In this document: one piece after another, positions 12,553-56,063 of the stretch
How positions within the stretch are numbered: the first letter of the stretch is position 1
Layout of the letters: each line of letters begins with the position of its first letter
Source: Physcomitrium patens
Taxonomy: Eukaryota > Streptophyta > Bryopsida > Funariales > Funariaceae
NCBI RefSeq assembly: GCF_000002425.4
Contig: NC_037261.1
Location: 7,554,701 to 7,618,700 of the forward strand
Direction of reading: 5' to 3'
DNA length: 64,000 nt
The notes under the pieces: generated by a model
What the model saw: the letters and a program-made list of their open reading frames with translations, nothing else
Told to the model about the DNA's origin: nothing
The model's database searches: none
Position numbers and translations under genes: made by a program

Positions 12553-12888
12553 CAAGCTAACAATGTGGCCCACACATAGAAAAACTTGCCTTGTAAGTCA
12601 AGGCATGTATCTTACAAAATCAACACATATTGGAGGTCCTATAGAATGTCGCCACATAGCCCTTATTAAGATAGTATATATAGAGACAAGAGTGAAGCCC
12701 TCTTCACTCTTGTCAATTCTTTTCTTGCTTCTAGTCTAATTTCAAGGATCTTTGATTTTCTTGTCTTTTGACAATAGCCATTCCAGTTTCTTTTTTAATA
12801 TACATATTGAGTTATTTCTATTTTTTCATCTTTCTTTGAGAGAAGTCTTACTTGTTTATTTGTCTTTATCAAGTTCTTGTCCTTGACA
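12553..12888 (+). repeat. 5' LTR remnant of copy A
   Basis: Matches the downstream part of the copy-A 3' LTR (18178-18736), starting at CAAGCTAACAATGTGG and ending CCTTGACA. The upstream U3 portion is missing. It keeps the TATA box (12675-12682), the inferred transcript start (12706) and R/U5. Confidence 0.9.
12675..12716 (+). promoter_or_regulatory. LTR TATA box and inferred transcript start
   Basis: TATATATA lies at 12675-12682. A perfect 13-bp inverted repeat (12685-12697 and 12702-12714, 4-nt loop) follows. ACTCTTGTCAA (12706-12716) begins 31 nt after the first T of the TATA box, the usual distance to a start site, and is the exact complement of the primer site at 12891-12901. The start site is inferred, not mapped. 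The 3' LTR repeats the arrangement (TATA 18523-18530, candidate start 18554). Confidence 0.6.
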
Positions 12889-12890
12889 GA

Positions 12891-12901
12891 TTGACAAGAG
12901 T
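12891..12901 (+). other. Candidate self-primer binding site (copy A)
   Basis: TTGACAAGAGT begins 2 nt after the LTR end. It is perfectly complementary over 11 nt (12 counting the preceding A) to the inferred 5' end of the transcript at 12706-12716. A tRNA-type site starting TGG is absent here. An orphan TATCAGAGC (12912-12920) lies about 23 nt downstream of the LTR edge. The same 2-nt spacing is seen in copies B, C, E and F. Confidence 0.65.
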
Positions 12902-13072
12902 ACATTTATAATATCAGAGCTTTGTCTAATCTTGATTAAGAGTGGATTATCCCTTTCTTTTGATAAGATATAAGCGTATTAGAAGTTGTGGATTACCCTC
13001 TTCTAAACTGATATTTTCCCTAGTATTTTCTTCGTTTTCAAATCCTCTCTTTTATTTGTCTTGAGCGATAAT

Positions 13073-13074
<2 letters not shown>

Positions 13075-13103
<29 letters not shown>
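13075..13103. repeat. Poly(T) tract in the gag leader
   Basis: About 29 consecutive T residues just before the gag start of copy A. It is absent from the same place in copies B and C, so it arose after insertion. Confidence 0.9.
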
Positions 13104-13115
13104 CTAAGTGTTATC

Positions 13116-14100
13116 ATGGCAGAACTTGCTGAAATGAAGAGTGCAATGGCACAAATGCAAGGGCAATTGAGGGAGTTAATGTTTGCGATGCATCAACTCA
13201 ATTTACCACGACAAAGAGCAACAAGATTGGCAAGAAGTGAAGATATAGAAATGATTGGAGTTGCTTCAACACCTACACCAAATCATGTCTCTTCTCTTAT
13301 GGAGGAATGTCCTTCCAATGTTAGAGAACCTAGAATTGCCCTATTTGAGAAGTTTAATGGTACCTAATCAAAGTTTAGAGGATTTATCAATCAAGTACAA
13401 CTTGTGATTGAACTTCAACCCCTAAGCTACCCAACTTCAGGATCACAAGTTAGATTCATTGGTACGCTTCTTTCAGGTTCAGTATTATCATGGTTTTCAT
13501 CTTTTCTTGAACGATGAGATCCAATATTAGATAATCTTGAGGCTTTTTTGGTGGAGTTTTGATTCATGTATGGAGAACATGATACAATTTGTATTGCAAC
13601 CAAGAAGATCCGTATTTTACAACAAGACAATCGATCAATAGTAATATATGCTTTATAGATTTGACAACTTGCAATTAATATCAAGTGGGATGATGCTGCA
13701 CTTATTAGCCAATTTCTCTACGGATTACAATATGAGGTAAAAAAATTAATGCTCAATTTACCTGATCTTCAAACATTAAGTCAAACAATTGACTTTGTTA
13801 TGAAGTGTGACAATTATCTTTTTGAATTCTGATCAGAGAACCGTACAAATAGACCTCAATATTACTATAATTCAATGGCAATACTAATACTATTAAACAC
13901 ATACATTTGAAAATAGAGGATATGCAAATCGATGCGGTACATTTTAAACCACTTATTGAGCAAGAAAAGACTTACCGTCGTCAAGAAGGATTGTGCTTAA
14001 ATTGTGGAGAACCTAAACACACTGCTCAACATTGCCCATAGAAGTGATGCAACCATAAAATGAGGAGTATGGCGATCAAAGAAGATAATATGTTGAAAAA
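13116..14100 (+). pseudogene. Gag of copy A, broken
   Basis: Starts at the ATG at 13116 (MAELAEMKSAMAQMQGQ), the same start context as copy B. After a leader helix comes the retrotransposon gag core, with readable pieces LFEKFNGT, FRGFINQVQLVIELQP, LSGSVLSWFSSFL and DDAALISQFLYGLQYEVK. Near the C terminus is one zinc knuckle, CLNCGEPKHTAQHC (13994-14035, CX2CX4HX4C), which packages the RNA. The N-terminal and knuckle parts are in different frames, and several stops intervene (for example at 13364 and 13516). The product would be the virus-like-particle coat protein; this copy cannot make it. Confidence 0.85.
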
Positions 14101-14119
14101 CGAATTTTTCTAGTTACAA

Positions 14120-17100
14120 TAGGGACCGTGTCGCTGGAACCTTGTACAATGCCTAGTGAAGGTCCTATCCTCTCCTCAGAACCCTGTCCATATTTTACGA
14201 TAAATATTATTCTATGACCTAAATATCACAAAGCCTCTGCCTTACTAGATTCAAGAGCCTTAGCATATTTTTTAGATGAAGAATTTGCTAAAAGATATAG
14301 CATATTTTTAGTAAAGAAAACTAAACCTATTCATATAGAAGTCATAGATGGTTGCTTGTTATCTTCAAGAGATGTTATTCATGAAATCCTTCCTATAGAA
14401 GTAGCAAATAATGGTCATAGTAGCTTTGTAATATTTAATATCATTAGATCTCCCTCTAATCCAGTCATTTTAGGTTTATCATGGCTAAAAAAATACAACC
14501 CTAAAATAGATTGGACTTCTCGTAGTCTTGACTTTTCTGAAAGTACAATTAAGAGCGTAGTTAATCAAGTAAAAAGTCATAAGTCTAGTATAATTAAACC
14601 TGTATTTGTAGGTGCAAGTACTTTTTTGCATGTTGCAAAAAAAAGATCACCTTGTGTCATTTATGCCACACCTGTTTCTATTGGTGGAAAGACTTCAAGT
14701 AGCATTCCAAGCCAATATCAAGATTTTGAAGATGTATTTGAGAAGAAAAATATGGATACTCTTCCGGAACATCGTTCCTATGACTGTTCAATTGATCTTT
14801 AAGAAGGAACACAATCGCCATTTGGACTAATCTATAATTTATCTCAAAATGATTTGGCTGAACTCAAGGAGTATATTGAAGAGAATCTAGACAAGAACTT
14901 CATACGCCATTCCAAATCTCCAATAAGAGCTCCAATTTTATTTGTGAAGAAAAAAGATGGATCATTGTAGATGTGTGTTGTTTATCGAGAAATCCACAAA
15001 ATCACCATCAAGAATAGGTACCCGCTACCTTTGATATTTAGATTCCTTGATCAGTTGAATGAAGCTAAGATCTATACAAAAATAGATCTACAAGGAACAT
15101 ACAATCTAGTACGTATTAAAGAAAAAGATGAATAGAAGACTGCATTTCGAATAAGGTATGGATATTTTGAATGCAATGTCATACCTTTTGGACTTACAAA
15201 TACACTAGCAGCATTCCAACATCTAATGAATGATATCTTTTGGGAGTTTTTAGATGATTTTGTTGTTTGTTACGTAGATGATATCTTAATCTATTCTAAG
15301 AACTTAGAAGAACATAAACTTCATGTTCGTCGTGTGTTACAAAAACTATGAGATGCAGGACTCTATGCCAAGATAGAAAAGTGTGTATTTTAGACTACTC
15401 AAGTCGACTTTTTAGGATACATCATTTCAAATGATGGACTTATAATGGATCCTAAGAAAATTCAAACTATTATGGATTGGAAGATCCCCAAAACGGTAAG
15501 AGATGTCCAATGCTTTTTGAGATTAACCAACTACTATCGGATCTTCATCAAAGACTTCTCTCAAGTTGTAGCTCTACTTACACGTTTGACTTGTAAAGAC
15601 AAACTTTAATAAAATCAAGAAGCAGAAGTAGCATTTGGAGCTTTGAGGACAACCTTTATCTCTGCACCAATCTTGTATTGCATCAATTTTTCTAAGCCAT
15701 TTTTTATGGAAACAGATGCATCAAAATTTTCTTTGCATGCCGTATTTTCACAAATGAGAACAGATAATAAACTTCATCCAATAGCTTTTTATTCCAGAAA
15801 ATTTTCAGTAGCCGACATCAACTATGAGATCCACGATAAAGAACTTCTTGCAATCGTAGATTTGTTTTAAGAATGGCGCCATTATTTAGAAGGTACTTCT
15901 AACTTTAATCATAGTATATGCAGATCACAAGAACCTTGAATATTTTATGTCAGCATGTGTTTTGAAGCATCGCAAAGCCCGTTAGAGTATGTCTTTTTGA
16001 AGATTCGAATTCAAGATCACTTATCAACTAGAAAAACAACAAGGTTTGTGAGATGCACTCTCTAGACGATCTTACCTTGTATCAAAGGAAGGAGATGTTA
16101 CTTTTGATCAACAATGGATAATTCTCTTGAAGCCAAAGCATCTTCATCTTCGGGCAATAAAATCAACAATAACTATTGATTCAACTTTCATTAAGCAAGT
16201 TTAGTCAAGTATGTCTTTTGATCCTCTTATTCGTGATATAAAGAGAAATCCTTCAAAATATCATGATACTTTCAAGTTTGAATTCAAGACAAAATCTACT
16301 ATATTTTGAGGGACGTCTATATGTTCCAGAAGGTGAAGCTCGATTACGTATTCTCCAAGCTCGTAATGACTTTCCAGTAGCAAGACGTTTTGGATACAAT
16401 AAAACTTTGGAACTAATATCCAGAGACTTTTGGTGGCCACAAATGTGGAAAGCAGTCAAAGATTTTTTACAATCTTGTGATATTTGCTCAAGATCAAAAA
16501 CTCATTTTCATCGACCTTACAGACTTTTTCAGCCATTACCCATCCTAGAACAATCATGGTCTTCTATTTCTATAGAGTTCATCATGAATCTTTTAATCTC
16601 AGATTCTTATGACTCTATATTCGTGATAGTAGATCGTTTTACCAAGATGGCACATTTTGTACTATGTACAAAATCCATCACACATAAAGAAACAGCCAAG
16701 TTCTTTTTTGACAATATCTATTGCTATCATGGATTACCCAAGGATATTATATTAGATAAGGGAACCCAGTTTGTATCAAGTTTTTTGTGGATTCTTTTCA
16801 AGATTCTAAAAGTGGATATAAAACTATCTTCGATATTCCATCCTCAAAGTGATGGACAAATGGAGCATGTTAATCAAGTATTGGAACAATATTTAAGAAG
16901 TACTATCAACTACCAACAAGATGATTGGACAACTCTTTTGCCATTGGCAGAGTTTGCTTACAATAATAAGATACATTCCTTTACAAAACAAACATCTTTC
17001 TTTACTAATTATGGTTATCATCCACGACTTGATACTTTTGACTTTTCAAAAGTTGATAATCTTGCTGTGAAAGATTTGACAATTCATTTATCAGAGCTAC

Positions 17101-17600
17101 ATGCAACGACAAAGGCACAGTTAAAAGAAGCTCAAGAATAACAAAAGGTCAATGTGGATGTGTGTTGAAAGGAACAACCACTATTCCACATGGGTGATAA
17201 GATATGATTACTTCATAGCAATATTAAGACCACTTGTTCTTGTGACAAGTTGAACTATCGAAGGCTTGGACCATTTTTTATTTCTGCACAAATCAATGCA
17301 ATTGTATATCGTTTACATCTATCGGAGTCAATGAAAATCAATCCAATATTCTACGTATCTCTTCTTGAACCATACAAGATAGTGGACATACCAAGAAGAA
17401 GACAAGCTCCACCTCCTTCTATAAAAGTAGACAATAATGAAGAGTTTGAAATGGAAGAAGTCTTAGATTCAAGGCGGCGTCAAAATAAATTAGAATATCT
17501 TGTCCATTGGCATGGTATGATATTAGTAAATGCACATGGGAGCCAGTAAAGAATCTTGCAAATGTAGCAAAGGTGGTAGAGACTTTTTATTGACAACATC
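14120..17600 (+). pseudogene. Pol of copy A: protease, RT, RNase H, integrase, chromodomain
   Basis: Domains in order. The aspartic protease core is near 14238 (ALLDSRA, where the family has DSGA; G to R by one transition). Reverse transcriptase spans about 14760-15560, with FVKKKDGS and YVDD at 15271-15282. RNase H spans about 15640-15900, with METDAS and EIHDKELLAI. The integrase zinc finger lies at about 16350-16490 (CDICSRSK). The integrase core includes VIVDRFTKMAHF, DKGTQF and FHPQSDGQ, with the catalytic E nearby (16610-16900). The integrase C terminus includes LDYR-like RLGPF. A chromodomain follows (about 17448-17585: EEVLDSRRRQNKLEYLVHWHG, then a one-base deletion before CTWEPVKNLA). 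The largest open piece, 16263-17141, covers most of the integrase. Multiple frameshifts and stops make it non-functional. Chromodomains guide insertion to marked chromatin. Confidence 0.92.
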
Positions 17601-17711
17601 CATCAAAATCAAGATGAAAACCTTCTTTATAAAAGAAACAAGATATAGGTAAGATAACATTCTATTTTCAATCTTTGTTTGTAGCTTCTTTATAGTTCTG
17701 ATGCTTTGGAC

Positions 17712-18134
17712 ATGGAGAACCAACAACTAGCAGATTCGACTCAAGAGCCTTCATTTGCTGACCTCCCAGATGAGACATTACAATTGTCACAACTTTCAAG
17801 ACGATGCAATCGAGATGATGATCTTCAAGAACAACATGTTCTCTCTTTAACAGATGGCAAGATACAACGCATTTGGTATCACGACCTTTGAAGGGACTCG
17901 TGATATTTGATAATTTAACTACAGGTAGGAACAACTCCTGACAGTGTTTTAAATAATTTATTCGAAAGAAGTTATGAAGGCCTCAACAATGATGAAATAA
18001 TTGGGTGGTCTTCCCGCCCTGGTATGGGACACTATCGATGGTTGAGAGGCCCTATCAATCATCTTCAAAGAGAACAAAGAGTAGAGTATTTGGCAAATAT
18101 AATTTATCGTATCATAGATTTTCTCAACATATGA
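17712..18134 (+). pseudogene. ORF3 of family 1 (copy A), unknown accessory protein
   Basis: A 141-codon frame (140 residues plus stop) begins ATGGAGAACCAACAA, after the chromodomain and just before the polypurine tract. It reads MENQQLADSTQEPSFADL at the start, GKIQRIWYHDL in the middle, and SYEGLNNDEIIGWSSRPG then YRWLRGPINHLQ towards the end, finishing DFLNI. Three internal stops (TGA, TGA, TAA) interrupt copy A; copy C supplies sense codons at those places. Copy B has exactly the same 423-bp length and end codons; copy C differs by 2 bp. No known family was recognised: it is not gag, an envelope or a chromodomain. A G-T-A-A-G...T-T-T-G-T-A-G stretch of about 40 nt lies just upstream in copy A, but the donor is not kept in B and C. 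Confidence 0.7.
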
Positions 18135-18162
18135 TCACCGCTGCTTGTGAAATTCGTCCCTA

Positions 18163-18177
18163 GAAGGGAGAGGGTAA
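18163..18177 (+). other. Polypurine tract of copy A
   Basis: GAAGGGAGAGGGTAA directly precedes the TGTCAC start of the 3' LTR, the expected place for the plus-strand primer. Confidence 0.8.
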
Positions 18178-18736
18178 TGTCACGGACATACGCATATAAG
18201 CCAGTAATTACATGTATAAATAGATAGAAGTAAGTAAAAATATGTAAAAGTAAGTTAATTCTATAGTATTTGATCTGAAAGCTTTCGAGAAGCTTTATAG
18301 ACACTGCTTTGACTTTATAAGTGTCTTTAATTGACTTTTTGGGATTAAAAACGTGGTCAATAAGTAGGCTATGTGCCACACATGTTGTTAGCTTGAAGAC
18401 CAAGCTAACTATGTGGCCCACATATAAAAAAACATGCCTTGTAAGTCAAGGCATGTGTCCTACAAAGTCAACACATATTGGAGGTCCTATAGAACGTCGC
18501 CACATAGCCCCTAATAAGATAGTATATATAGAGACAAGAGTGAAGTTCTCTTCACTCTTGTCAATTCTTTTCTTGCTTCTAGTCTAGTTTCAAGGGTCTT
18601 TGGTTTTCGTGTCTTTCGGCAATAGCCATTCTAATTTCTTTCTTAATACACATATTGAATTATTTATATTTTTTCATCTTTCTTTGAGAGAAGTCTCACT
18701 TGTTTATTTATCTTTATCAAGTTCTTATCCTTGACA
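18178..18736 (+). repeat. 3' LTR of copy A
   Basis: 559 bp, beginning TGTCACGGAC and ending CCTTGACA, followed by D-element sequence. This junction, like those of B and C, shows that the LTR does not include the primer-site region. Confidence 0.92.
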
Positions 18737-22180: not shown

Positions 22181-22195
22181 GCGCTCTTATCAAAT

Positions 22196-22535
22196 TGTAA
22201 AGGACATGAATCTTCAAAAAAGAAATCTTCCATATATTCTTATGTCACTTAAAAAGACTGAAACAATCACTCAAAGATGTTAATATAATGAACTAAAATG
22301 GCTATTGCCAAAGACAAGAAAACTAGAAAGTCTTGAAATAAGATTAAAGACTAAAAAAACATTGATAAGAGTGAAGAAGATTTTATTTTTATTTTTATAT
22401 ATACTATTTAATTAAAAGCTACAGGATAATATTCTATAGAACCTCTGATACATGTTGACTTTGTAAGACATGTATCTTAACTTACAAGACAAGTTTTCTA
22501 TATGTGCACCATATAATTAGCTTGTTTTACAAGTT

Positions 22536-26949: not shown

Positions 26950-28287
26950 TGTCACAAATATACACATGTAAGCCAATAATTACCTATATAAATAAATAGA
27001 AGTAGGTAGAAGTAGGTAAAAATAAGTTAATTCTATAATATCTTCTATGAAAGCTTCTTAGAAGCTTCATAGATATTTCTTTGACTTTATAGGTATCTTT
27101 AATTGACTTTTTGGATTAAAAACATGGTCAATAAATTGGCCATGTGTGATTGTCGTTTTACTTATTCTACATTTGCTTCTAGAATAAATCTATATAAGAG
27201 AATTCGAACACAGAGAAAGACTATGCACATGAATTTCACTTGTTAGGGTCACACAATTCATTGTATTCCAAACCACTAAAACATTAAGAAACATTAGAAT
27301 GCTTCCTCCCAGTAATAATACTCCTTCATCAGCTGATAACCACAACGTGCAACCCTATACTCTCAAAAGACCACTCAGAATTCAATAAATTCCATCCAAT
27401 ACCAGGAATAACAAACTTCACTCCAACCAATCTGAATTCATAGAATTCCTGTAATCGCAGACTTCCTCTGTCGAAACACACACATAAAACTCTCAATAAA
27501 CAACAATCATACTCTTCCATCTATAATCAATCTTTCAATAACTTCTCATATAATTCAATCACTCAGTACTCCAATTACATAATCAATAACTCATAAATCA
27601 GTCTCTGATTTATTCCACAGATTCACTTCTTAGTATTCAAAAACTATCCATTACTCTTGAACAATAAAGAAAACAAAAGAAAAAAAACAAAGAGGAAGCA
27701 CAAAGCTTAATCCCAGCTCATGACTATGACAGTCTGGCCCCTTGACAAACTTCTACAATTCTTATATAATTGCTATTGATTTCTACATTCTAACCGTAAT
27801 CCTATAATAATCACTTTTAATAACTGAATCAATCATTCATCCTCCTAAACTGACTATTCTATGGACTATTAGTTTATTTTACCAATATCTTACAAAAATG
27901 AACTAATATCTATTCTACACCATGTGCAACACATATTGCTAGCTTGAAGATCAAGCTAACAATGTGGCCTACACATAAAAAAACTTATCTTGTAAATCAA
28001 GGCATGTGTCCTACAAAGTCAACACATATTAGAGGTCCTATAGAACATCACCACATAGCCCTTAGGTAGATAATACATATAAAGATAAGAATGAAGTGCT
28101 TTTCTTTCTTGTCAACTCTTTTTTTATTTCTAATCTAGTTTCAAGAGTCTCTAGTTTTCTTGTCTTTTGGCAATAAGACTTTCTATTTTTTTTTAATATA
28201 TATACTTCCTTATTTCTATTTTGTCACTTTTTCTTTGACATAGATTTCATTGGTTTATACATCATCTTTTAGTTTATCTCCTTGACA
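26950..28287 (+). repeat. 5' LTR of copy B, interrupted
   Basis: Begins TGTCACAAATAT and ends CTCCTTGACA. Without the 773-bp insertion (27147-27919) it is about 560 bp. Two nt later, TTGAAAAGAGT (28290-28300) is the decayed primer site. The candidate start sequence is at 28105-28115, with two changes. Confidence 0.9.
27147..27919. mobile_element. 773-bp insertion in the copy-B 5' LTR, possibly a solo LTR
   Basis: Begins TGATTGTCG and ends TCTACA, so it has TG...CA ends. It is flanked on both sides by the 7-bp CCATGTG (27140-27146 and 27920-27926). Removing it restores the LTR collinearity. No coding region is visible. A solo LTR is the simplest reading, but the repeat is longer than the usual 4-6 bp. 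Confidence 0.6.
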
Positions 28288-29014
28288 AATTGAAAAGAGT
28301 ATACTTACAAGATCAGAGCTTTGTCTTGTCTTGATTGAAAGTAGATTATCTCTTTGTTATGATAAGACATAAGCATATTAGAAGTTACAGATTATCCTCT
28401 TCTAAACTGATATTGTTCTTAGTATTTTCTTTGTCCTCAAGTCCTTTCTTCTACTTATCTTGAGTGGTATTAGATATGTTTTTGAATATTATTATGGCAA
28501 AGTTTATTGAAATGAAGAGTACAATGGCATAAATATAAAAGCAATTGAGGGAGTTAATACTTGCGATACATCAACTTAGCTTACCACCACAAAGTTCAAC
28601 AAGAATGGCAAGAAGTGAGGATATAGGAATGATTAGAACTGCTTCAACATCTACGCCAAATCATGTCTGTCCATCCATGGTAGAACATCCTTCAAGTATT
28701 AGAGAACCAAGAATTGCCATGCTCAAGAAGTTTGATGGTACAAGATCCAAATTTTGAGGATTTATCAATCAAGTACAACTTGTGATTGAACTTCAACCTC
28801 AAAGCTATCCAATTCTAGAATCACAAGTTAGATTCTTTGATACACTTCTTTCAAGTTCAATACTATCATGGTTTTCATCTTTTCTTGAATGATGAAATCC
28901 AATATTGGATAATCTAGAGGCATTTATAGCAAAATTTTGATCTATGTATGAAAAATATAATACAACTCATGTTGCAACCAACAAGATCCATATTTTACAA
29001 TGAGGCAATTGATC

Positions 29015-29111
29015 TGTAACATGGTTAAGATAGAGAGAGTTTGCCTCAAGAAAGCATTGGTCCTAGCTGCCACTAATTACTCAATCAAGTCTTGAAATAA
29101 GAAAGATCAAG

Positions 29112-29194
<83 letters not shown>

Positions 29195-30333
29195 AACATT
29201 TTTAAGATTAATTACATCAAATATATAAGTCTTAAGTCCTCAAAACATCCAAAATATGATTAAAAAAAACTCTAAATCCTTATATATCCTTATGGGGTAT
29301 TATTCTTGAACTTCAAAAACTCATAACTTCTAATTAGACCATTCAAATACACTCAAATTTTATATGAAGTATTGATATACTTCTAAAAACTACCACAACA
29401 AATTTCAATTGCAAAATCATTGAAAAACTTAAAATATTACCAAAATCCTAATAGTAGCTTCAAACCTTAGTTTTTATACACCCACATATAATTTTCTTTA
29501 TATCTCACAAATTAAACATCTAAAGACCAAAAAGTTTATATGTATAGTTTTTTAACATAATTATCTAACTTTTTTAAAAATTTTGAGCCAAAAATACTTT
29601 CAAAAATTCAAGATATGGCTCGAATTATTACTATGAACAAAATCACTTACTTATTGCCTTTGATTTGGATGCTTTGACTTCAATCCTCTATAACTTCTTC
29701 ATCTAAACTCCAAATTCATCAAACAATAGTTAAAAAAGTTTTCTCTCCAATTCCAGTTGCCGATCTTTTATTGCTCTCCATAAACGTATATTATGTCTTG
29801 AAGAGTGACAATACGTATGAAATTGATACCTTAACTTTGAGCACCAATAACTCCTTCATAAAAACTCCAAATCACACAAAATTTGTATCCAATCCATATC
29901 CAAAAACCTAAACTCACTGATCTTAGTCTCCCAAGTTCAAATGACTTTGAAAGAAAAATCCTAATTCCTAATAAGGCCTTAGGCAGCCTCCTTGAAGTCC
30001 ATTGGGCATGGCCTTTGACCAATAAGAATGAAGATCTCCATTCTTTGCCTTCATCCAATCATGCCTTACTTTCATCCCTCCCAATAAGCCTCCTAATAGT
30101 TAAGATTTTCTTCTTTGGGCTCTAATCTCTTCTCAAGGCTTCATACTAAATATTTAGGTCTTATAATTTTTTTAAAATGCTATAATCAAAAAAGATAAAA
30201 CTCAAAATAAAGTTTTTTAAATCTACTTTCTTTGAATTAATTTATTAATCATTCTAACATAAATCTAGATTTATTAACATATAATATATTTTAACTAATT
30301 TTTACATACTATAGGCTTTTATAGTATGACAAT
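29015..30333 (-). mobile_element. 1.3-kb solo-LTR-like repeat in copy-B gag
   Basis: TG...CA ends (TGTAACATGG at left, GTATGACA at right). Read in reverse complement, its central and terminal parts match 45480-45670 and 45990-46056, the DNA following Gypsy-2 integrase. It is therefore most likely a solo LTR of the Gypsy-2 family or a close relative, in minus orientation. No clear target duplication was seen. It carries a 79-bp TA run (29113-29191). The open frames inside (29831-30125, both strands) show no domain. Confidence 0.6.
29113..29191. repeat. (TA)n microsatellite, 79 bp
   Basis: Uninterrupted TA dinucleotides, the longest such array in the window. Confidence 0.95.
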
Positions 30334-30814
30334 GTTATATGCTTGACAATTTCAATAACTTGCAACTCATATCAAGTAGGATGATGCTACACTTATTAGC
30401 CAATTTTTTCTATGGATTACAATATGAAGTAAAGAAATTAATATTAAACTTACCTGATCCTCAAATATTGAATCAAATAATTAACTTTGCTGTGAAATGC
30501 GAGAATTGACTTTTTGAATTTCAATCTAAGAGTCATACAAATGGGCCCCTACGTTACTACAATTTGATGGCAATACCAACATCTCTTCAACACATACATT
30601 TAGAAGTAGAGGATATGTAAATTGATGCAATATGTTTTAAACTTCTTATCGAACAAGAAAAGATTCATTAATGTCAAGAAGGATTGTACTTATATTATAG
30701 AAAATCTAAACATACTGCTCAACATTATCTAAAGAAGCAACAAAATCACAAAATGAAGAGCACAAATATCTAAGAAGACAATTTATCAAAAAATGAATTT
30801 ATCCAACTACAATA

Positions 30815-33800
30815 GGAACCGTGCGGTTGAAATCTTATACAATTTTTAATGAAGGTCCTATCTTCTCTTCAAAATCTTCTCCTTGTATTATAATAGATGT
30901 GCATTTAGGATCTAATGATTATAAAGCCTCTGCCTTCATAGATTTAGGAGCCTCAGCTTGTTTCTTAGTCATAGAATTTTTTAAAAATCATAAAATATTG
31001 TTAGTACAAAAAATCAAACCTGTTTATGTAGAAATCATAGATGGTCCTTCATTATCTTATGAAGATGTTACTCATGAAATACTTCCTATTGATGTAGCAA
31101 TAAATGGTTATTGTAGTTGCATAATCTTTAATATAATTAGATCTCTTTCTAATCCAATCATTTTAGATTTATCATGATTAAAAAAATATAATCTTTGTAT
31201 AGATTAGATTTCTTATATCTTTGACTTTTCTAAAAGCATAATTAAGAGTGAAATTAATCTAGTAGAAAGTCATAAGTCTAGTACAATTAAACTTATATTT
31301 GTAGGTGCAAGAACTTTTTTGCATGTTGCAAAAGAAAGATCACCTTATGTCATTTATGCTACAATTGTTTCTAATGATGCAAAGACTTTAAGTAGTATTT
31401 CCAGCCAATATCAAGAATTTTAAGATATATTTGAGAAGAAGAATGCGGGTACTCTTCTAGAACATTGTCCCTATGACTACTCAATTGACCTTCAAGAAGG
31501 AGCACAACTGCCATTTGGACCAATCTATAGTTTATCACAAAATGAATTGGCTAAACTCAAAAAATATATTGAAGAGAATTTGGCCAAGAATTTCATATGC
31601 CATTCCAAATTACCACTAGCAACTCCAATCTTATTTGTGAAAAAAAAAGATGGATCATTGCAGATGTATATTGATTATCGAGGACTCAACAAGATCACCA
31701 TCAAGAATAGGTACTCTTTATCTTTGATAATCAAACTTCTTGATTAACTGAATCAAGCTAAGATCTATACAAAAATAGATCTTAGAGAGCATACAATCTA
31801 GTACATATTAAAAAAAGAGATGAATAGAAGACTACATTTTGAATTAGGTATGGGTATTTTGATTACAACATCATGCCTTTTGGACTTATAAATACATTGG
31901 CACCTTTTCAACATCTAATAAATGATGTTTTTTGAGAGTTTTTAGATGATTTTGTTGTGTGTTATTTGGACCACATCTTGATCTATTCTAAGAATATAGA
32001 TGAATATGAATTTCATGTTTGTCGTGTATTACAAAAATTAAGTGATGCTGAAATCTATGCCAAGATAAAAAAAAAGTATATATTCTACATTATTCAATTT
32101 GACTTTATAGGATATATCATTTCAAATGATGAATTTATAATGGATCCTAAGAAAGTTCAAACAATTATGGATTGGAAGATTTCAAAAAAGTAAGACATAT
32201 CTTATTTTTTTTGAACTTTATCAAGTATTATTGGATCTTCATCAAAGACTTCTCTTGAGTTGCAGCTCTACTTACACATTTGATTTATAAAGACGAACTT
32301 GAGTGGAGTAAAGAAGCTGAAGCATCTTTTGAAACTTTGAAGTCAACTTTTATTTTTACACCAATCTTGTATTGTGTCAACTTTTCTAAGGTATTTTTTA
32401 TAGAAACAAATGCATAAAATTTTGCTTTAGATGCCATATTATTACAAATAAGAGTAGATGATAAACTTCACCTAGTAGCTTTTTATTCCAAAAAATTTTT
32501 AGTAGCCAAGATTAACTATGAAATCCACGACAAAGAGCTTCTTACAATTATGGATTCATTTCAAGAATACCATCATCATCTAAAAGGTGCTTCTAATCTA
32601 ATCAATGTGTATACGGATGACAAGAATCTTCAGTAGTTCATGTCAACATATGTTTTAAATCATCGCCAAGCTTGTTGGAATATGTCTTTATCAAGATTTG
32701 ATTTCAAGATCAAATATCCACCTTAAAAACAACAAGATTTATCAGAAGCCCTTTCTAAATGTTCTTATCTTGTACCAAAAGAAAGAGATGCCTGTTTTGA
32801 TCAGCAAAGAATAATTTTCTTGAAGCTAGAGTATTTTCATCTTCAAGTAATGAAATCAACATTGACTGTTGATTTGACCCTTGTGAAATAAATCCAATTA
32901 AGTATGTCTTTTGATCCTCTTGTATACAATATTAAGAATCCTTCTTCTAAGCCCCAAGATACTTCTAAGTTTGAGCTCAAAAACAACCTACTCTATTTCA
33001 AAGATCAATTATATGTTCCATAAGGAGAAGCATGATTATGTGTTCTTCAAGCACATCATGGCTTTCTAATAGCAAAACATTTTGGATACAACAAAACTTT
33101 GGAGCTTATATCTAGAGATTTTTGGTGGCCACAAATGTGAAAGGGTGTTAGACTTTGTTCAGTCATGCGATATTTGTTCAAGATCAAAAACTCCCCGTCA
33201 TTGATCTTACAGACTTCTTCAACTATTACCCATTTCAAAACAACCATGGTCTTTTGTTTCTATGGATTTCATCAAGGATCTTTCAATCTCAAGTTCTTAT
33301 GACTCTACATTCGTGATAGTAGATCGTTTCACCAAGATGGCACATTTTGTACCATGTACAAAATCTATCTCGTGTGAAGAAACAACTAAGCTCTTTTTTG
33401 ACAATATTCATCGCTATCATGGATTATCCAAAGATATTATATTAGATAGGAGAATTCAGTTTGTATCAAGATTTTAGTAGACTCATTTCAAGATTTTAAA
33501 AGTAGATATAAAACTATCTTCGTTATTCCATTCTCAAAGTGATGGACAAATGGAGCATGTTAATCAAGTTTTGGAGTAGTATTTAAGATGTATTATAACT
33601 ACCAATAAGATGATTGGACAACTTTTTTGCCATTGATAGAGTTTGCTTATAATAATATGGTACATTCTTCTACAAAACAAATACTTTTTTTTTTCCAATT
33701 ATGATTATTATCTATGACTTGATACTTTTGACTTTTCAAAAGCTGATAATCTTGTAGCAAAAGATTTGGTAAATCATTTGTCAGAGCTACATATAACAAT

Positions 33801-34290
33801 GAAGGCACAATTAAAAGAAGCTCAAGAATAACAAAAGATCAATATGGATGTCTATCAAAAGGAATAACCACCATTCTACATAGGTGACAAGGTTTGGTTA
33901 CTTCATCGCAATATCAAGGCTACTTTTCCTTGTGACAAGTTGGACTATCGAAGGCTTGGATCCTTTTCTATTTTTCCACAAATCAATCTAACTGCATATC
34001 GTTTATACCTATCGGAGTCAATAAAAATCCATTTAATATTCCACGTATCTCTTTTTGAATCATACAAGATAGAAGACATACCAAGAAAAAGACACGCTCT
34101 ATTTCTTCCTATTAAAGTGGACAATAATAAAGAGTTTGAAGTGGAAGAAGTCTTAGATTCAAGGCGGGGCCAAAATAAATTAGAATATCTTATCTATTAG
34201 CATGGATATGATATTAGTGAATGCACATAGGAGCTAATAAAGAATCTTGCAAATACAACAAAGGCAGTGGAGGCTTTTTATCGATAACAT
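30815..34290 (+). pseudogene. Pol of copy B, broken
   Basis: Collinear with copy A. The protease has FIDLGASACFL (the D-x-G core retained; about 30930). RT has [20 protein letters not shown] (about 31640-31700) and YLDH in place of YVDD (about 31963). RNase H (about 32390-32580) has lost the TDAS aspartate context. The integrase zinc finger lies at about 33060-33200. The integrase core at about 33262-33560 keeps IVDRFTKMAHFVPCTKS and DRRIQF, and the C terminus has YRRLGSF. The chromodomain lies at about 34140-34270 (EEVLDSRRGQNKLEYL, then GYDISECT and a stop). Many stops and frameshifts. Confidence 0.9.
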
Positions 34291-34402
34291 CTATCAAAAT
34301 CAAGATGAAGACCTTTCCTATAAAAGAAACAAGGTCTAAGTAAAATAACATTCTACTTTTAATCCTTGTTTGTAGCTTCTTTTTAATTGTGACTCTAAGG
34401 AG

Positions 34403-34825
34403 ATGGAATACCAACAACCAACGGATTTGACTAAAGAGCCTTCATTTGCTAACCTGTTGGATGAGACATTGTAATTGTCACAACTTCTAAGATGACACAA
34501 TCGAGATGAAGATCCTCGAGAATGACATGTTTTTTTTTATATAAATGGCAAGATATAATACGTTTGGTATTATAAACTTGGAAGAGACTTCCCATGTTTG
34601 GTAATTTTATTAGAGATAGAAACAACTCATGACAGTATTTTAAATATTTTATTTGAAGGAAGTTATGAATGCCTCAACAACAATTTGATAACAAGGTGGT
34701 CTTCCCGCCCTAGTATGAGATACTATGGATGGTTGAGAGGCCCTATCAATCATTTTTGAAGAGAACAAAGATCTAAGTATGTGGTGAATATAATTTGTTG
34801 CATCATAGATTTCTTTAACATATGA
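34403..34825 (+). pseudogene. ORF3 of copy B
   Basis: Exactly 423 bp, as in copy A, from ATGGAATACCAACAA to AACATATGA. It is in frame throughout, with five internal stops that can each be derived by single transitions. Shared readable pieces include EPSFANL, ILFEGSYECLNN, RWSSRP and GWLRGPINHF. The equal length despite heavy substitution shows this was a real reading frame in the ancestor. Function unknown. Confidence 0.65.
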
Positions 34826-34866
34826 TGACCACTCCTTGTTGAACTCGTCCCTAGAAGAAGAGATAA

Positions 34867-35416
34867 TGTCACAAACATATGCATGTAAGCCAGTAATTAC
34901 ATGTATAAATAGATAGAAGTAAGTAAAAATAAGTTAATTCTATAATATCTTCTATAGAAGCTTCCTAGAAGCTTCATAGACATTGCTTTGACTTTATAGG
35001 TGTCTTTAATTGAATTTTTGGAATAGAAACATTGTCAAGAAGTTGGCCATGTGCCACATATGTTGTTAGCTTGAAGACCAAGCTAACTATGTGGCCTACA
35101 CATAGAAAAACTTGCCTTGTAAGTCAAAGCATGTGTCTTACAAAGTCAACACATATTTGAGGTCCTATAGAACATCACCACATAGCCCCTAGTTAGATAG
35201 TATATATAGAGACAAGAGTGAAGCCCTCTTCACTCTTGTTAACTCCTTTCTTACTTCTAATCTAGTTTCAAGAGTCTCAAGTTTTCTTATTTTTTTGGTA
35301 ATAAGCCTTTTCTAATTTCTTTTAATATACATATTTTTTTATTTTTATTTTGTCATTCTTTCTTTGACATAGATTTTATTGATTTATGCATCATCTTTTA
35401 GTTCATATCTCTCACA
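34867..35416 (+). repeat. 3' LTR of copy B
   Basis: 550 bp, TGTCACAAACATATG to TCTCTCACA, followed by the target duplication and the rest of the Tc1-like transposase. Confidence 0.92.
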
Positions 35417-36188: not shown

Positions 36189-36749
36189 TATCAAGGATAA
36201 GAACTCGATGAAAAAGCAATTCAGTCAAGTGAGCCTTCACTCAAAGAAAGGTAACAAAATATAAATAAATAAGTATCTATATTGAAAGAGAAATTGGAAT
36301 GGCTATTGCCAAAAGTCAAGAAAACTAAAGACCCTTGAAACTAAACTGGAAGCAAGAAAGGAGTTGACAAGAGTGAAGAAGGCTTCACTCTTGTCTCTAT
36401 ATATACTATCTAACTAGGTGCTACGTGGCAACGTTCTATAGGACCTCCAATATGTATTGACTTTGTAGGACACATGCCTTGACTTACAAGGCAAGTTTTT
36501 CTATGTGTAGGCCACATAGTTAGCTTGGTCTTCAAGCTAACAAAATATGTGGCACATGGCCAACTTATTGACCACGTTTCTAATCCAAAAAGTCAATTAA
36601 AGACACCTATAAAGTCAAAGCAGCATCTATGAAGCTTTTAGAAAGCCTCTATACTAAATACTATAGAATTAACTTATTTTTATCTACTTTTACTTACTTC
36701 TATCTATTTATATATATAATTAGTGGCTTACATGAATAGGTCCGTGACA
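36189..36749 (-). repeat. 3' LTR of copy C
   Basis: 561 bp. On the minus strand it runs from TGTCACGGACC to CCTTGATA. The candidate transcript start ACTCTTGTCAA is intact at 36364-36374. Confidence 0.95.
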
Positions 36750-41567: not shown

Positions 41568-41578
41568 ACTCTTGTCAA
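41568..41578 (-). other. Candidate self-primer binding site (copy C)
   Basis: TTGACAAGAGT on the minus strand, 2 nt after the LTR end (41581). It matches the intact start sequence in this copy's 3' LTR over 11 of 11 bases. The 5' LTR start sequence (41756-41766) has since gained two transitions. Confidence 0.65.
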
Positions 41579-41580
41579 TC

Positions 41581-42141
41581 TGCCAAGGACAAGAACTCGA
41601 TGAAAAAGTAATTCAGACAAGTGAGCCTTCACTCAAAGAAAGGTAACAAAATATAAATAAACAAGTATGTATATTGAAAGAAAAACTGGAATGGCTATTG
41701 CCAAAAGTCAAGAAAACTAGAGATCCTTAAAACTACACTAGAAGCAAGAAAGGAGTTGATAAGAATGAAGAAGGCTTCACTCTTGTCTTTATATATACTA
41801 TCTAACTAGGGGCTACATGGCGACGTTCTATAGGACCTCCAATATGTGTTGACTTTGTAGGACGCATGCCTTGACTTACAAGGCAAGTTTTTCTACACGT
41901 GGGCCACATAGTTAGTTTGGTCTTCAAGCTAACAACATGTATGGTACATGGCCAACTTGTTGATCACGTTTTTAATCCCAAAAAGTCAATTAAAGACACC
42001 TATAAAGTCAAAGCAGCATCTATAAACTTCTCGAAAGCTTCCATATAAAATACTATAGAATTAACTTATTTTTATCTATTTTTACTTACTTCTACCTATT
42101 TATATATGTAATTATTGGCTTACATGAGTAGGTCCATGACA
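41581..42141 (-). repeat. 5' LTR of copy C
   Basis: 561 bp, minus strand, TGTCATGGACC to CCTTGGCA. Confidence 0.95.
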
Positions 42142-42380: not shown

Positions 42381-43908
42381 TTTTGATATAACATAGCTAA
42401 TGAATGAAAGAAAGATAAAAACATTATATTATAAAAGATCTTATTTTAAAATATTATAGAAAATATCTTATAAAATAGGTAATAGTCAAAAAGATAGTAA
42501 AACTAAAAGATACTATTACTGCCTTTTTATGAAATAAGCTTTCATTTATTTTGTAAGGCCATAAATAAGGCAAAAAAAAATAGATTAGAAATTAAAATAA
42601 TATAAGTATATGTAGGAGAGAATTAAGAGTAGATTTTAGTAAAAATTATCTCAAGAAGCCAAAAATTGATACCCAAAGAGGACCAATTGTCAACCTGGGT
42701 CAAAATTAGATCCCAATATACAAAACTATGCACATACAATGACTCTGGAGTTCTTTGAGAGATTAAAGAGTGGAATTTGAAGGCAAGCTTGATAAGATTT
42801 TTATAAACATTAATTTTGTGTGATTTACATTTATACTACCTTTCTAAGAGCTTTAAAAAACCAAGGTTGTTTCAGATAATTTAGATTTTTTTGAAATAAA
42901 ATAGGATTGATGTTTTAGATAATTTTAGGAGTATTGTAGTAGATCTATAGATGTAATTTTGTGGATTGGTGTATATAGTTGTGCTTATTATGTGTTATGA
43001 ATTTAAGATCAATTTAATAATTAGATCAAAGTATGTAAATGTTTTTATAGATTAAGGTCTCAAAAATTGGAATTTGAAGATTAGTGAATATTTTTAAGAT
43101 CTTTAGAAATTTTTCAATTTAATTGAAGTGAATTTTTTTTATATAAAGACTACACTTGATTTTCAATAATTTAAGTGAATTTTGGAAGAAAATAAATAGT
43201 TCAAATAGGAGATATTGGCACTAGAAGCTCAACATTTAGATTCGAAAAAGAGGTCGACCATTACCTAAGTGGATTTTAGGATTTTTCTTCCATTTGGTAA
43301 GTGCAATAATCTTCAAATTTGTTGTAGTGGTTTTCAACTAGGAGATTAATAGGTATGTAAATTTTTAAGCAAGATTAATAGTTTGATCAATAGATATTGG
43401 AGTTCTAATTTGCTATAAAATTTGTCTAGGATTTGGTTTAGGATTAAGAGTTTGTCTACAATTTGATTTAGAATTTAGGAATTGTCTAGGATTTGGTTTA
43501 GAATTTAGGATTTATTTAAGATTTGATTTAAAATTTAAGTTTTATTTAAGGTTTGCTTCAGGACTTAGGATTTATGTAGGATTTGGTTTAAGATTAGGAT
43601 TTGATTTAGGATTTAATTAAAAACCATTAAGATTTCAATTAGGATTAAAGTAGAATTTGATTAAGATTTATTTGAGATTTATTTAAGACTTCTCTAATAT
43701 TTTTTAAAGATTTCTTTATGTTTCTTTTATAATTTCTATAAGATATCTTTTGAATTTGATTAAAGCTTAATTAATATTATTAAGGTTTAATTAGACTTTA
43801 TTTTAGATTTTATTAGAGTTTTTAAGATCTTATTGTTGCACTTTTTCTTCTATCTTCTATAGCCAAGTGCTTGATGCATTATCAAATAAAACTTTATGTA
43901 ATATGATA
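42381..43908. mobile_element. 1.5-kb insertion of unknown type in Gypsy-2 integrase
   Basis: Flanked by ACATTG on both sides (42375-42380 and 43909-43914). Removing it restores the reading N-Y-I-E-D-R-A. The ends show weak inverted similarity (TTTTGATATAACATA versus TTATCATATTACATA). It contains no recognisable protein and a degenerate minisatellite (about 43430-43640). Some interior phrases recall other AT-rich repeats in the window. Class unknown. Confidence 0.6.
43430..43640. repeat. Degenerate minisatellite rich in GGATTTGGTTTAG
   Basis: Tandem variants of a unit of about 25-30 bp built on GGATTTGGTTTAGAATTTA. Seven to eight diverged units are visible. Confidence 0.75.
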
Positions 43909-47274: not shown

Positions 47275-47467
47275 CCTATTACAGCATTGTATATAAATAC
47301 TCCATGGGGCCTTCAACGCTGGAGCTCTTTGTAGAAGCGTACAGTGGAGACCAACCACCACATTCCTGTGGATGAAACAACACAGCAAAACAAAAGCGAC
47401 GCAGAGAAATGACATCCAAAGTTCGGATGCAAAAAGCAACGTTTCTTCACAATCGAGAATCCTTTCC

Positions 47468-47477
47468 TTCACGTGAA
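47468..47477. promoter_or_regulatory. Palindromic G-box (TTCACGTGAA)
   Basis: CACGTG in a 10-bp palindrome about 1.24 kb upstream of the JAZ start codon. MYC2-type factors bind G-boxes in JAZ promoters, giving feedback control. Assignment here is inference from motif and position. Confidence 0.4.
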
Positions 47478-47864
47478 AACAACCACAACACTCCTAAGCA
47501 AAACCTTGTCACACATGTTTTGTACCTACCCTCGTTGCAAACCTCACACATCCAAATTTAAGAACAATGTGCTGCTACAAAAAACATTAACAACGTTTAA
47601 TATTAGGGTTCACAAACCACGGAGCACAATTCCAAAACCAGCACATCGTGATTATTCCAGCCACGTAGCATGCACCACTACTGAGCAAGAAAATCCGGGA
47701 TGAATAACCCGGTGGATTCCCGAAGCACAATATGACGTCCAACACTGAGGGTTACCGATTGTGAAAAATTAGATAATGTACTCTAAATATAGTAAAAGAG
47801 AAAGTTGGGGGTAGTTTGGCCGACAGTGGCCTAGCGAAGGCGCCATATAATTTTCAGGGAGGGC

Positions 47865-48715
47865 GTGGAGACGATTAGGGGAGTGGATTTGAGGAAGACC
47901 TGGCAAAACCTTGTGACGTTGCCAAGGACGTGGGTTGACGAAGGAGTGACGCTAGGTGGGGGGAGTGGGGGGGGACACGGTGGGGCCGCGCCCTTGCGGC
48001 CGTTTGTCTCTTCGTCGTACCTGACATGCCTGCTTGCCTGCCTTCCTGCAAATACTCACACAGTATTTTGCTTTTGCTACGCGCTTCATCGTCGATTTTC
48101 CCATCACCTCACAGCTACTCCATGTGCTAGTCGCGCCTGCACAACCTCGAGCACCAGCTGGTTGTGGACGGCTTACCATCAATTACTTTGCGATCGCCCT
48201 GCGCTCTCGTATCAAGCTCTTATCAATCTGCCCTCGCGTTTCCGGAAGTGGGTGGTGCGTTTAATACCAGCTTGCTTGAGTGATCTTCAAATGCTTTTAT
48301 CAGTTTCACGCGTGTGGAGCAGTAGGCAAGTGGTGAGAGAGGGAATGGAGTTTGCTTGAGGTGGTGGCAATCTGGAGATTGTGGTTGTAAAGGTCTTGGT
48401 TTATTTATTTTTTATTTTTTTTATTTTTTAAGGGCCTGTTGATTGCTAGCGAGTCGTCGAGGCGAGGAGCGTGGGAGTGGTGGCGAGCCGGCGCGGGGCA
48501 AGAGGAAGGAAAAAGGATAACGGAGTGTATGTGCCGTTGGTTTGCTTCATGTGGGTGACCTTAATAGTGGAGCATCAGAGTTTGTGTGGATGGGTACGAG
48601 GTGAACGGAGAGGAAAAACATGATGGTGGGTGTTGCCTTGAGGGTTGGAATTTGAGAGCTACATGTTTTGGACGAGGTACCTCGGGCATTTGTTGAGGGG
48701 ATCTGTGAAACGCGG
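47865..48715 (+). other. GC-rich region upstream of the JAZ start, probable 5' leader
   Basis: GC-rich with many CpG, unlike the rest of the window. A long open frame (47865-48359) lacks an ATG near its start and shows no domain. An in-frame TGA at 48653-48655 separates it from the JAZ frame. It may be leader sequence, with or without an unseen 5' exon. Confidence 0.4.
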
Positions 48716-51488: not shown

Positions 51489-52391
51489 GAGTTGGCTATG
51501 GAAGTACGTCAGGCCAAGAAGTCAATATTACTTGTCACATAGATAATAAATAGGTTAGAGATTTTTGTTAGAGGTCACCTTTCTTTTCGCTTGGTGTTGA
51601 AGGTGAAACCTTGTATAGGATGCATCAAGGTAGAGATAATTAATTTAGGAACAAAGAAAAATTCCAGCACTTGAAGGTCTTAAAATCTGTGTCCCACCAG
51701 TTCACAGATTCATAAAAACTAACCATGTGCCTTGTCAGGTGCTGGTGATCTTGAGTTGATAGATTTTAAAGAATTATATTGCAGAGTAACGTAAGGATTC
51801 ACTCGATCTTTAGGATTAGTGAGGAAGCCGGCCTTGTTGCTAGATGAGTACCTGATTTGGAGCGAGATGGAGTTCTTGTGGTGATGAATTGATGTCTTTC
51901 GAGCATTTTGCAAGAATTTGATGTCCAAAACTTTCTTTTTAATGGGAATGGGATGTACGACTGCATCAACTATGATTCTTTTTTTTTTGGCCCGTTGTTT
52001 AAAATTGTGTTCAGCAAAGGTTGATGTCTTACTGGCTTATAATGTCTATTTTTTCATATAAATTCTCTTCAAATAAAGAATTTTTTTTGGGTTCACAATG
52101 TATTTTTGGTGGTTGCATAAAATAAATTTGGTTTTAGCACATGAAAATTTGAATATTTGGTTTGAACTTAAGATATTTATTCAGAACATTAGAAGGATAA
52201 TCTAAAACAAAGATATTTTCTAATTTTTTTTTGATAAAGAATGAACAGATGGGTTGAAAAAGACATGGAAGAATATGTGAATAGAAAATGTTAAAGTGTA
52301 AGAAAATGGTAAAAGAGTTGACAAGAAAGTCTTAAACTTTTGTAGAATTTAATTTTTAAGTTTTAAATACAATTATATTTTTAATGTAAAA

Positions 52392-55315: not shown

Positions 55316-55833
55316 TGTCACAGATATACATATTTACTCTAATATTTATCTATATGATTAAATAGAAATAAATAGAAATAGATTTATTTTGTAGTATTTT
55401 TTTAAAGAAGCTTCTAGACATTGCTTTGACTTTACATGTATATGTAGTTGATTGGTAGGTTGGAAACTTAGTCAATAAGTTAACCATGTGTTGGTAGCTT
55501 ACAAAACAAGCCAACTATGTGGCATATATATAAAAAACTTGCCTTATAAGTTAAGATATGTATCTTGCAAAGTCAACATATTTTAGAGGTCTTGTGGAAC
55601 ATTGCCACATAGCTCTTAGTTAAGAATATATATGAAGATAAGAGTGAAGTTTTCTTCATTCTTATTAATGCCTTTTTAGTCTTTAGTCTTGTTTCAAGTC
55701 TTTTTAGTATTTTTGTTGTTGGTAATAGCTATTATAGTTAAATATTATATCAGCTTTGAATGATTTTATTGTCTTTTTGAGTGACACAAGAGTTTATTGA
55801 TCTTTTAATTTTTCGAGGTTCATGTCCTTAATA
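55316..55833 (+). repeat. 5' LTR of copy F
   Basis: 518 bp, TGTCACAGATATAC to CCTTAATA. Two nt later, TTAACAAGAGT (55836-55846) is the primer-site counterpart. The start counterpart is ATTCTTATTAA (55658-55668). Differences from copy A are all transitions. Confidence 0.8.
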
Positions 55834-56063
55834 GTTTAACAAGAGTGCTAACTCATTGTTTATGTCTTATTTTAAAAGTGACTGAATTACCTCACTTCTA
55901 TTATTGTATTTTAAAGGTTATAAATTATCTATTTTTAAACAAAGTATCCAATTTTTAGTACTGATTTTTTTCCTCAAAGAGAGTGAATTATCCCTCTTTT
56001 GACATTAGAAGTTGCAGATTATCTTTTTTTAATTTGACTTGAGGATTTGTTAAGTTACTTGAA

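Follow-up and report, generated by a model that had tools for sequence, protein, structure and literature searches.

A moss Ty3/gypsy chromovirus family with the layout of Tf1-type self-priming in Physcomitrium patens

Most plant LTR retrotransposons are primed by tRNAs, and the question raised by the locus described here is whether a gypsy family of the moss Physcomitrium patens instead begins reverse transcription from the folded-back 5′ end of its own RNA. In Tf1 of Schizosaccharomyces pombe, the founder of the self-primed group, the primer binding site (PBS) pairs with the first 11 bases of the RNA, the RNase H cut falling between bases 11 and 12, as described in PMC7175516. The window, by which we mean the whole 64,000-nucleotide stretch that was analyzed, holds worn copies of one gypsy family (family 1) at 12553-18736 (copy A), 27922-35367 (copy B), and 42141-36191 on the minus strand (copy C), with older relatives near 22.7-22.2 kb (minus strand), 46.1 kb, and 55.4 kb. 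The letters of the sequence-only reading were taken to mean 27922-35367 for B, about 22741-22183 (minus strand) for E, and 55406 onwards for F. The features are collected in Table 1.

The PBS of copy A, TTGACAAGAGT, is the exact reverse complement of ACTCTTGTCAA, which lies in the 5′ LTR of the same copy. The LTR terminus, CTTGACA at 12888, is followed by GA, a 2-nt gap, and then by the PBS, and ACTCTTG begins 31 nt after the first T of the TATA box TATATATA. The arrangement first read from the letters of copy A, with an 11-nt PBS, a 2-nt gap, and an exact complement 31 nt after the TATA box, was confirmed together with its coordinates. The start of R is predicted to be the A of ACTCTTGTCAA, given the distance from the TATA box and the C-A step at this place. 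The C before R and the A after the PBS are unpaired, so that the helix stops at the predicted +1, and one extra T-A pair is present at the opposite end; some copies carry a G after the PBS, which could give one added pair before +1. Because the 5′ LTR of copy A is without its first 223 nt, no target-site duplication is visible for this copy. The LTR ends are fixed independently by L011, a copy elsewhere in the genome, in which TATGT flanks both sides of TGTCA...TTGACA. The earlier claim that copies A, B, and C all fix the LTR end at TTGACA held for the 3′ LTR of A; the 3′ LTR of C ends in TTGATA and that of B is worn at its end.

Table 1. Coordinates of the priming features and LTRs in the window
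Feature	Position	Strand	Basis or remark
5′ LTR, copy A, first 223 nt missing	12553..12888	+	BLAST against 3′ LTR, 92%
TATA box TATATATA, copy A	12675..12682	+	sequence
Left arm GACAAGAGTGAAG of U3/R inverted repeat	12685..12697	+	13/13 complementary to 12702-12714
Right arm CTTCACTCTTGTC, overlaps self-primer	12702..12714	+	sequence
Predicted R start / self-primer ACTCTTGTCAA, copy A	12706..12716	+	exact PBS complement, 31 nt after TATA
PBS TTGACAAGAGT, copy A, 2 nt past LTR end	12891..12901	+	sequence, shuffle test
gag-pol region, copy A, worn, with stops	13117..17600 (limits approximate)	+	open stretches
3′ LTR, copy A	18178..18736	+	BLAST; own primer copy at 18554-18564
PBS TTGATAAGAGC, copy E	22183..22193	-	sequence
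R start ACTCTTATCAA, copy E	22362..22372	-	sequence
5′ LTR, copy B, worn	27922..28287	+	BLAST; partner 28105-28115
PBS TTGAAAAGAGT, copy B	28290..28300	+	sequence
3′ LTR, copy B	34867..35367 (BLAST limits)	+	partner 35232-35242
3′ LTR, copy C	36191..36749 (BLAST limits)	-	exact primer copy at 36364-36374
PBS, copy C, exact	41568..41578	-	sequence
5′ LTR, copy C	41581..42141	-	BLAST; worn partner 41756-41766
R start ATTCTTATTAA, copy F	55658..55668	+	sequence
PBS TTAACAAGAGT, copy F	55836..55846	+	sequence

Dinucleotide shuffles of the LTRs were used to ask how often such pairing arises by chance. The 11/11 pairing reported earlier for copy A, and for copy C when its 3′ LTR is used, was equalled in 0 of 1000 shuffles in either case, and the same result was obtained for L009, L011, and the family II copy described below. 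The partner in the 5′ LTR of copy C itself is worn to 9/11, which is not above chance. Pairing had also been called recognizable in B, E, and F; this was borne out for E, which pairs at 10/11 (equalled by 7 of 1000 shuffles), and not for B (best 9/11, via the 3′ LTR) or F (9/11), which taken alone do not exceed chance (233 and 170 of 1000 shuffles, respectively). In E, where both partners were said to have changed so that pairing was largely kept, there is indeed one G-C to A-T double change that preserves the 10/11 pairing, but the change is of the C-to-T decay type and is therefore weak evidence. The K2P divergence between the LTRs of A, B, and C is 0.086, 0.154, and 0.091, respectively; in six further copies on contig 1 it is 0.004-0.007, apart from L010 with 0.048. 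Exact pairing was seen in five full family-1 copies with LTR divergence of 0.004-0.007, all of them found through the motif. Elsewhere in the window, a repeat of six copies with a 30-nt step lies at 43390-43629, the stretch 47400-52000 seems G+C-richer by eye, and an open frame at 48656-49306 has 95% identity to a protein and is perhaps a host exon.

Across the 470.4 Mb and 101 contigs of the genome searched, the 11-mer occurs 20,479 times (10,188 + 10,291), compared with 123 (64 + 59) for the reversed pattern. A 26-nt genomic primer published for P. patens (PMC4228350) has 10 exact matches in this genome, and its reversed control has none. Copies were also sampled independently of the motif, by searching with the leader just after the PBS and fetching 20 of the 39 other places listed; 19 of these 20 pair at 11/11 and one at 10/11, the copies being near-identical (leader 99%) because the search ranks the best matches. 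A de novo scan for a TATA box, R, and PBS was dropped, since its reversed-sequence control was invalid: complementarity survives reversal of both strands.

A second family in the same genome, family II, carries a different primer and PBS pair, AGTCTCGACAA/TTGTCGAGACT. It was recognized on the minus strand of L018, in an element related to family 1 whose reverse transcriptase (RT), with one stop and one frame break, is 72% and 85% identical to that of L011 in two pieces and whose LTR divergence (K2P) is 0.046. The LTR of this copy terminates in CCGTGACA, followed by GT and then by TTGTCGAGACT, so that the gap between LTR end and PBS is 2 nt as in family 1, and AGTCTCGACAA lies in the LTR 32 nt after TATATA. 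From 3301 first-look candidates in a DNA search, 40 copies with 96-100% identity were scored and 30 loci were cut out. The site was judged present in 29 of the 30 loci (the exception being L049), with pairing of 11/11 in 27 of the 29 and 10/11 in the other two. The family II primer departs from that of family 1 at three positions (2, 6, and 8), each of which is matched by a change in the PBS. Duplexes formed across families are weak, at -6.5 and -3.2 kcal/mol, relative to those within families (-14.4 and -16.2 kcal/mol).

Compensation was then sought at the level of single copies. LTRs with variant R sequences were picked by pattern (412 genome matches, with 40 fetched of about 100 listed); 20 of the 40 have a readable PBS, two further matches look spurious, and the remainder are without a PBS. 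In the ten family-1- or III-like copies with a change at R6 the PBS always keeps A, and in the ten II-like copies with a change at R2 it always keeps C, so that none of the 20 readable PBSs compensates a private primer change. A pattern for II-like LTRs with T at R6 gave 384 genome matches, from which 20 tiny stretches were fetched, eight with a readable PBS. The matching A is present in three of these eight and a wobble G in five, but A is also present in four of nine PBSs of II-like copies with C at R6; an association between R6 and the PBS is therefore absent. Family III (the E/F type; 20 fetched of 39 places besides F) was set aside as too worn. The ten II-like LTRs with C at R2 (L116-L125), nine of which share ACTCTCGACAA, are unmatched in every readable PBS and possibly represent a subfamily that has spread with imperfect pairing. 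Compensatory changes, which the sequence-only reading proposed to look for across subfamilies, thus exist between families 1 and II, at three positions, and not in individual copies (0/20).

These results bear on the explanation that the family-wide matching reflects mere common descent of two old lineages and is silent on present function. Most copies within a family are identical at these sites and so are not independent, and the private changes are uncompensated, as this explanation would have it. Against it, two lineages that differ at three primer positions each pair at 11/11 in most loci examined, and the five low-divergence copies of family 1, found via the motif, pair exactly. We consider it very unlikely, and Tf1-type self-priming better explains the matching.

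Upstream of the primer of family 1 there is a further element, in the order GACAAGAGTGAAG, 4-nt spacer, CTTCACTCTTGTC, the last nine bases of CTTCACTCTTGTC being primer bases 1-9. The two arms form an inverted repeat across U3 and R that pairs at 13/13 in 32 of 60 LTR rows and at 12/13 in 17 more; since six rows repeat a place from an overlapping locus (two rows look spurious), the count for distinct places is 43 of 54 with at least 12/13. Most family II loci have GTCGAGGYTGAAG as their left arm, which pairs at 13/13 with the right arm when G.U is allowed. At R, the PBS, and the left arm, the three variable places were tabulated for 89 five-prime ends with at least 8 paired bases, a table that excludes L100-L139 (chosen for R variants) and in which overlapping loci are multiply counted. 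Of these ends, 44 have CTT/GAA/GA(A or G) and 26 have GCA/CGT/CGT, so that one of the two family sets is present at all three elements in 70 of 89 rows; the other 19 are mixed, mostly with single changes.

This inverted repeat could be taken to mean that the complementarity is a core-promoter DNA dyad, and that the PBS-like copy is the same regulatory motif and no primer site. The repeat is conserved between the TATA box and the predicted start (49 of 60 rows have 12/13 or better), and GACAAGAGT is common to the left arm and the PBS. A promoter motif does not account, however, for a third copy that in both families sits precisely at the place required of a PBS, 2 nt inside the LTR edge, nor for the 11/11 match of that copy when the left arm tolerates G.U-type changes, and we regard this explanation as highly unlikely.

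If family 1 is self-primed, the inverted repeat may have a role of its own. The left arm lies about 10 nt after the TATA box, upstream of the predicted start, and should therefore be present only at the RNA 3′ end. It is possible, though we hold it only tentatively, that the repeat is a working part of self-priming, in which a 3′-end hairpin would mask the second primer copy, so that the 5′ copy alone would pair with the PBS and be cut, and in which PBS, R start, and U3 left arm would evolve together. In copy A the hairpin (-18.8 kcal/mol) is stabler than the R-PBS duplex (-14.4 kcal/mol). In the family II copy of L018 the two are about equal (-15.7 and -16.2 kcal/mol), and the masking idea is weakened there because the hairpin is no stabler than the duplex. 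A hairpin of this kind in self-primed elements was not found in the literature searched, including the available text of PMC3601003; the search was limited and the negative is a weak one.

Folding of the leader was examined in an alignment, in which the R-PBS helix is picked unprompted. Among 14 copies this helix has a mean pairing probability of 0.79-0.96 in eight; the value is 0.16-0.36 for A, C, and L009, whereas for B, E, and F, which are worn, it is close to 0. The leader folding energies are ordinary (z of -0.56, -0.43, and 0.00). As for a Tf1-like 'pretzel', the alignment fold gives the central helix, and the two flanking duplexes were not established. An approximately 110-nt unit, ATATCAGAGC...GCGGATTACCC...CTGATAT, follows the PBS in the leader at 12902-13018 of the window and is repeated in family II (L018 minus strand, about 7375-7102); as a guess, it is a candidate packaging or dimerization signal.

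The protein domains of the family were assigned on L011. This copy encodes gag, protease, RT, RNase H, integrase, a Tf2-type SH3 domain, and a chromodomain (Pfam Chromo). In EEFEVEEILDSR..YLVYWYGY, the chromodomain has F, W, and Y at the places that we take, by HP1, to form the aromatic cage. At 2065-2131 of L011, gag and pol overlap by about 22 codons, with pol in the -1 frame, and around this overlap no canonical slippery heptamer was found in four copies. The L011 RT shares 62-68% identity with five fungal rows and 57-65% with eight from vertebrates, compared with 53-56% for eight from the daisy family and 53% for an amoeba. In an RT tree of 42 rows, ten moss RTs group with fungal, frog, fish, amoeba, and unnamed RTs, and eight daisy-family RTs split off at 100/100, whereas the fork uniting fungi and vertebrates only reaches 86/90. 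The tree was midpoint-rooted and includes a single Tf2-9-labelled fungal protein in place of named Tf1, sushi, Tcn1, Galadriel, CRM, and Reina references. The placement of the RT with Tf1, sushi, and Tcn1 that had been proposed is therefore answered in part: the moss RTs stand beside fungal and vertebrate relatives and apart from those of the daisy family, in a tree without the named elements. Two family LTR-PBS junctions in the same orientation, 855 bp apart at L012 114 and 969 (= L027 1914 and 2769), are a nested or tandem arrangement.

Taken together, the placement of the site, the exactness of its match, the compensated primer of family II, and the kinship of the RT give good support to the proposal of a Tf1-type layout in a plant genome. 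Family 1 is best explained as a Ty3/gypsy chromovirus of the Tf1/sushi kind (Tcn1 in plants), and on the evidence of its sequence Tf1-type self-priming is very probably how it is primed. In such a mechanism the RNA would start at the A of ACTCTTGTCAA, and its first 11 nt would fold back to pair with the PBS, which lies two bases in from the LTR edge; the RNase H of the element would presumably cut after base 11, and the freed RNA end would then prime minus-strand DNA. Less securely, the U3/R left arm, being only at the RNA 3′ end, could hide the second primer copy. It is extremely unlikely that the primer at the LTR edge is instead of cellular origin, whether a tRNA 3′ end, a half tRNA, or some other small RNA, with the LTR match being incidental. 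PMC6317226 describes tRNAs as the primers of most plant LTR elements and half-tRNA primers in some lineages. However, the mark of tRNA-primed chromoviruses, a TGG 0-5 nt after the LTR that is complementary to the tRNA 3′ end, was not found at the LTR edge (TGG is absent within roughly 20 nt after it in copy A and the other rows examined). Nor would a cellular primer lead one to expect two families whose PBSs differ and in each case complement the family's own R start exactly.

Family 1 resembles Tf1 in having, at the LTR edge, a PBS complementary to the predicted first 11 RNA nucleotides, and in its chromodomain integrase, going by the accounts of Tf1 in PMC7175516 and PMC10085805. It differs in its plant host and in having gag and pol in separate, overlapping frames; cleavage after base 11 is reported for Tf1 and predicted for family 1. 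The U3/R inverted repeat conserved in family 1 is unmentioned for Tf1 in the literature searched, as far as the texts available go. PMC10085805 states that Tf1 self-priming requires a three-duplex RNA, and that Tf1/sushi elements are present in non-seed plants. The sequence-only reading knew of no described plant example, and this does not stand: PMC6317226 had already predicted self-priming for most members of the plant Tcn1 clade, from moss and club-moss, these being without tRNA sites, unlike other plant chromovirus clades, and it likewise predicts self-priming for the TAR copia lineage. The plant Tcn1-clade chromoviruses, including PpatensLTR2 and SM-Tcn1, share with family 1 the host group, an aromatic-residue chromodomain, and, for the majority, predicted self-priming, according to PMC6317226; PpatensLTR2 is likened to family 1 by its description. 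SM-Tcn1 of Selaginella differs from family 1 in that PMC2864245, in its available text, found neither a tRNA site nor self-priming in it. The most abundant P. patens element, RLG1, is described in PMC7466625 as having a chromodomain, protonema expression, a place in heterochromatic islands, and 5092 complete elements; it fits the abundance of family 1 seen in the 11-mer count and, going by host and abundance, may be the same family.

The self-priming proposed for family 1 is thus of a known kind, in a host group with a prior prediction, and is not new; what remains of interest is the co-varying 13-bp U3/R inverted repeat and the base-level evidence from two families. Two abundant families in one genome with different yet compensated primers are a clean natural experiment, and they give family-scale, base-level support to a mechanism whose occurrence in mosses had been a prediction from pattern searches. 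If the hairpin does mask the 3′ primer copy, it would explain how a self-primed element avoids pairing of its PBS with the wrong end of the RNA.
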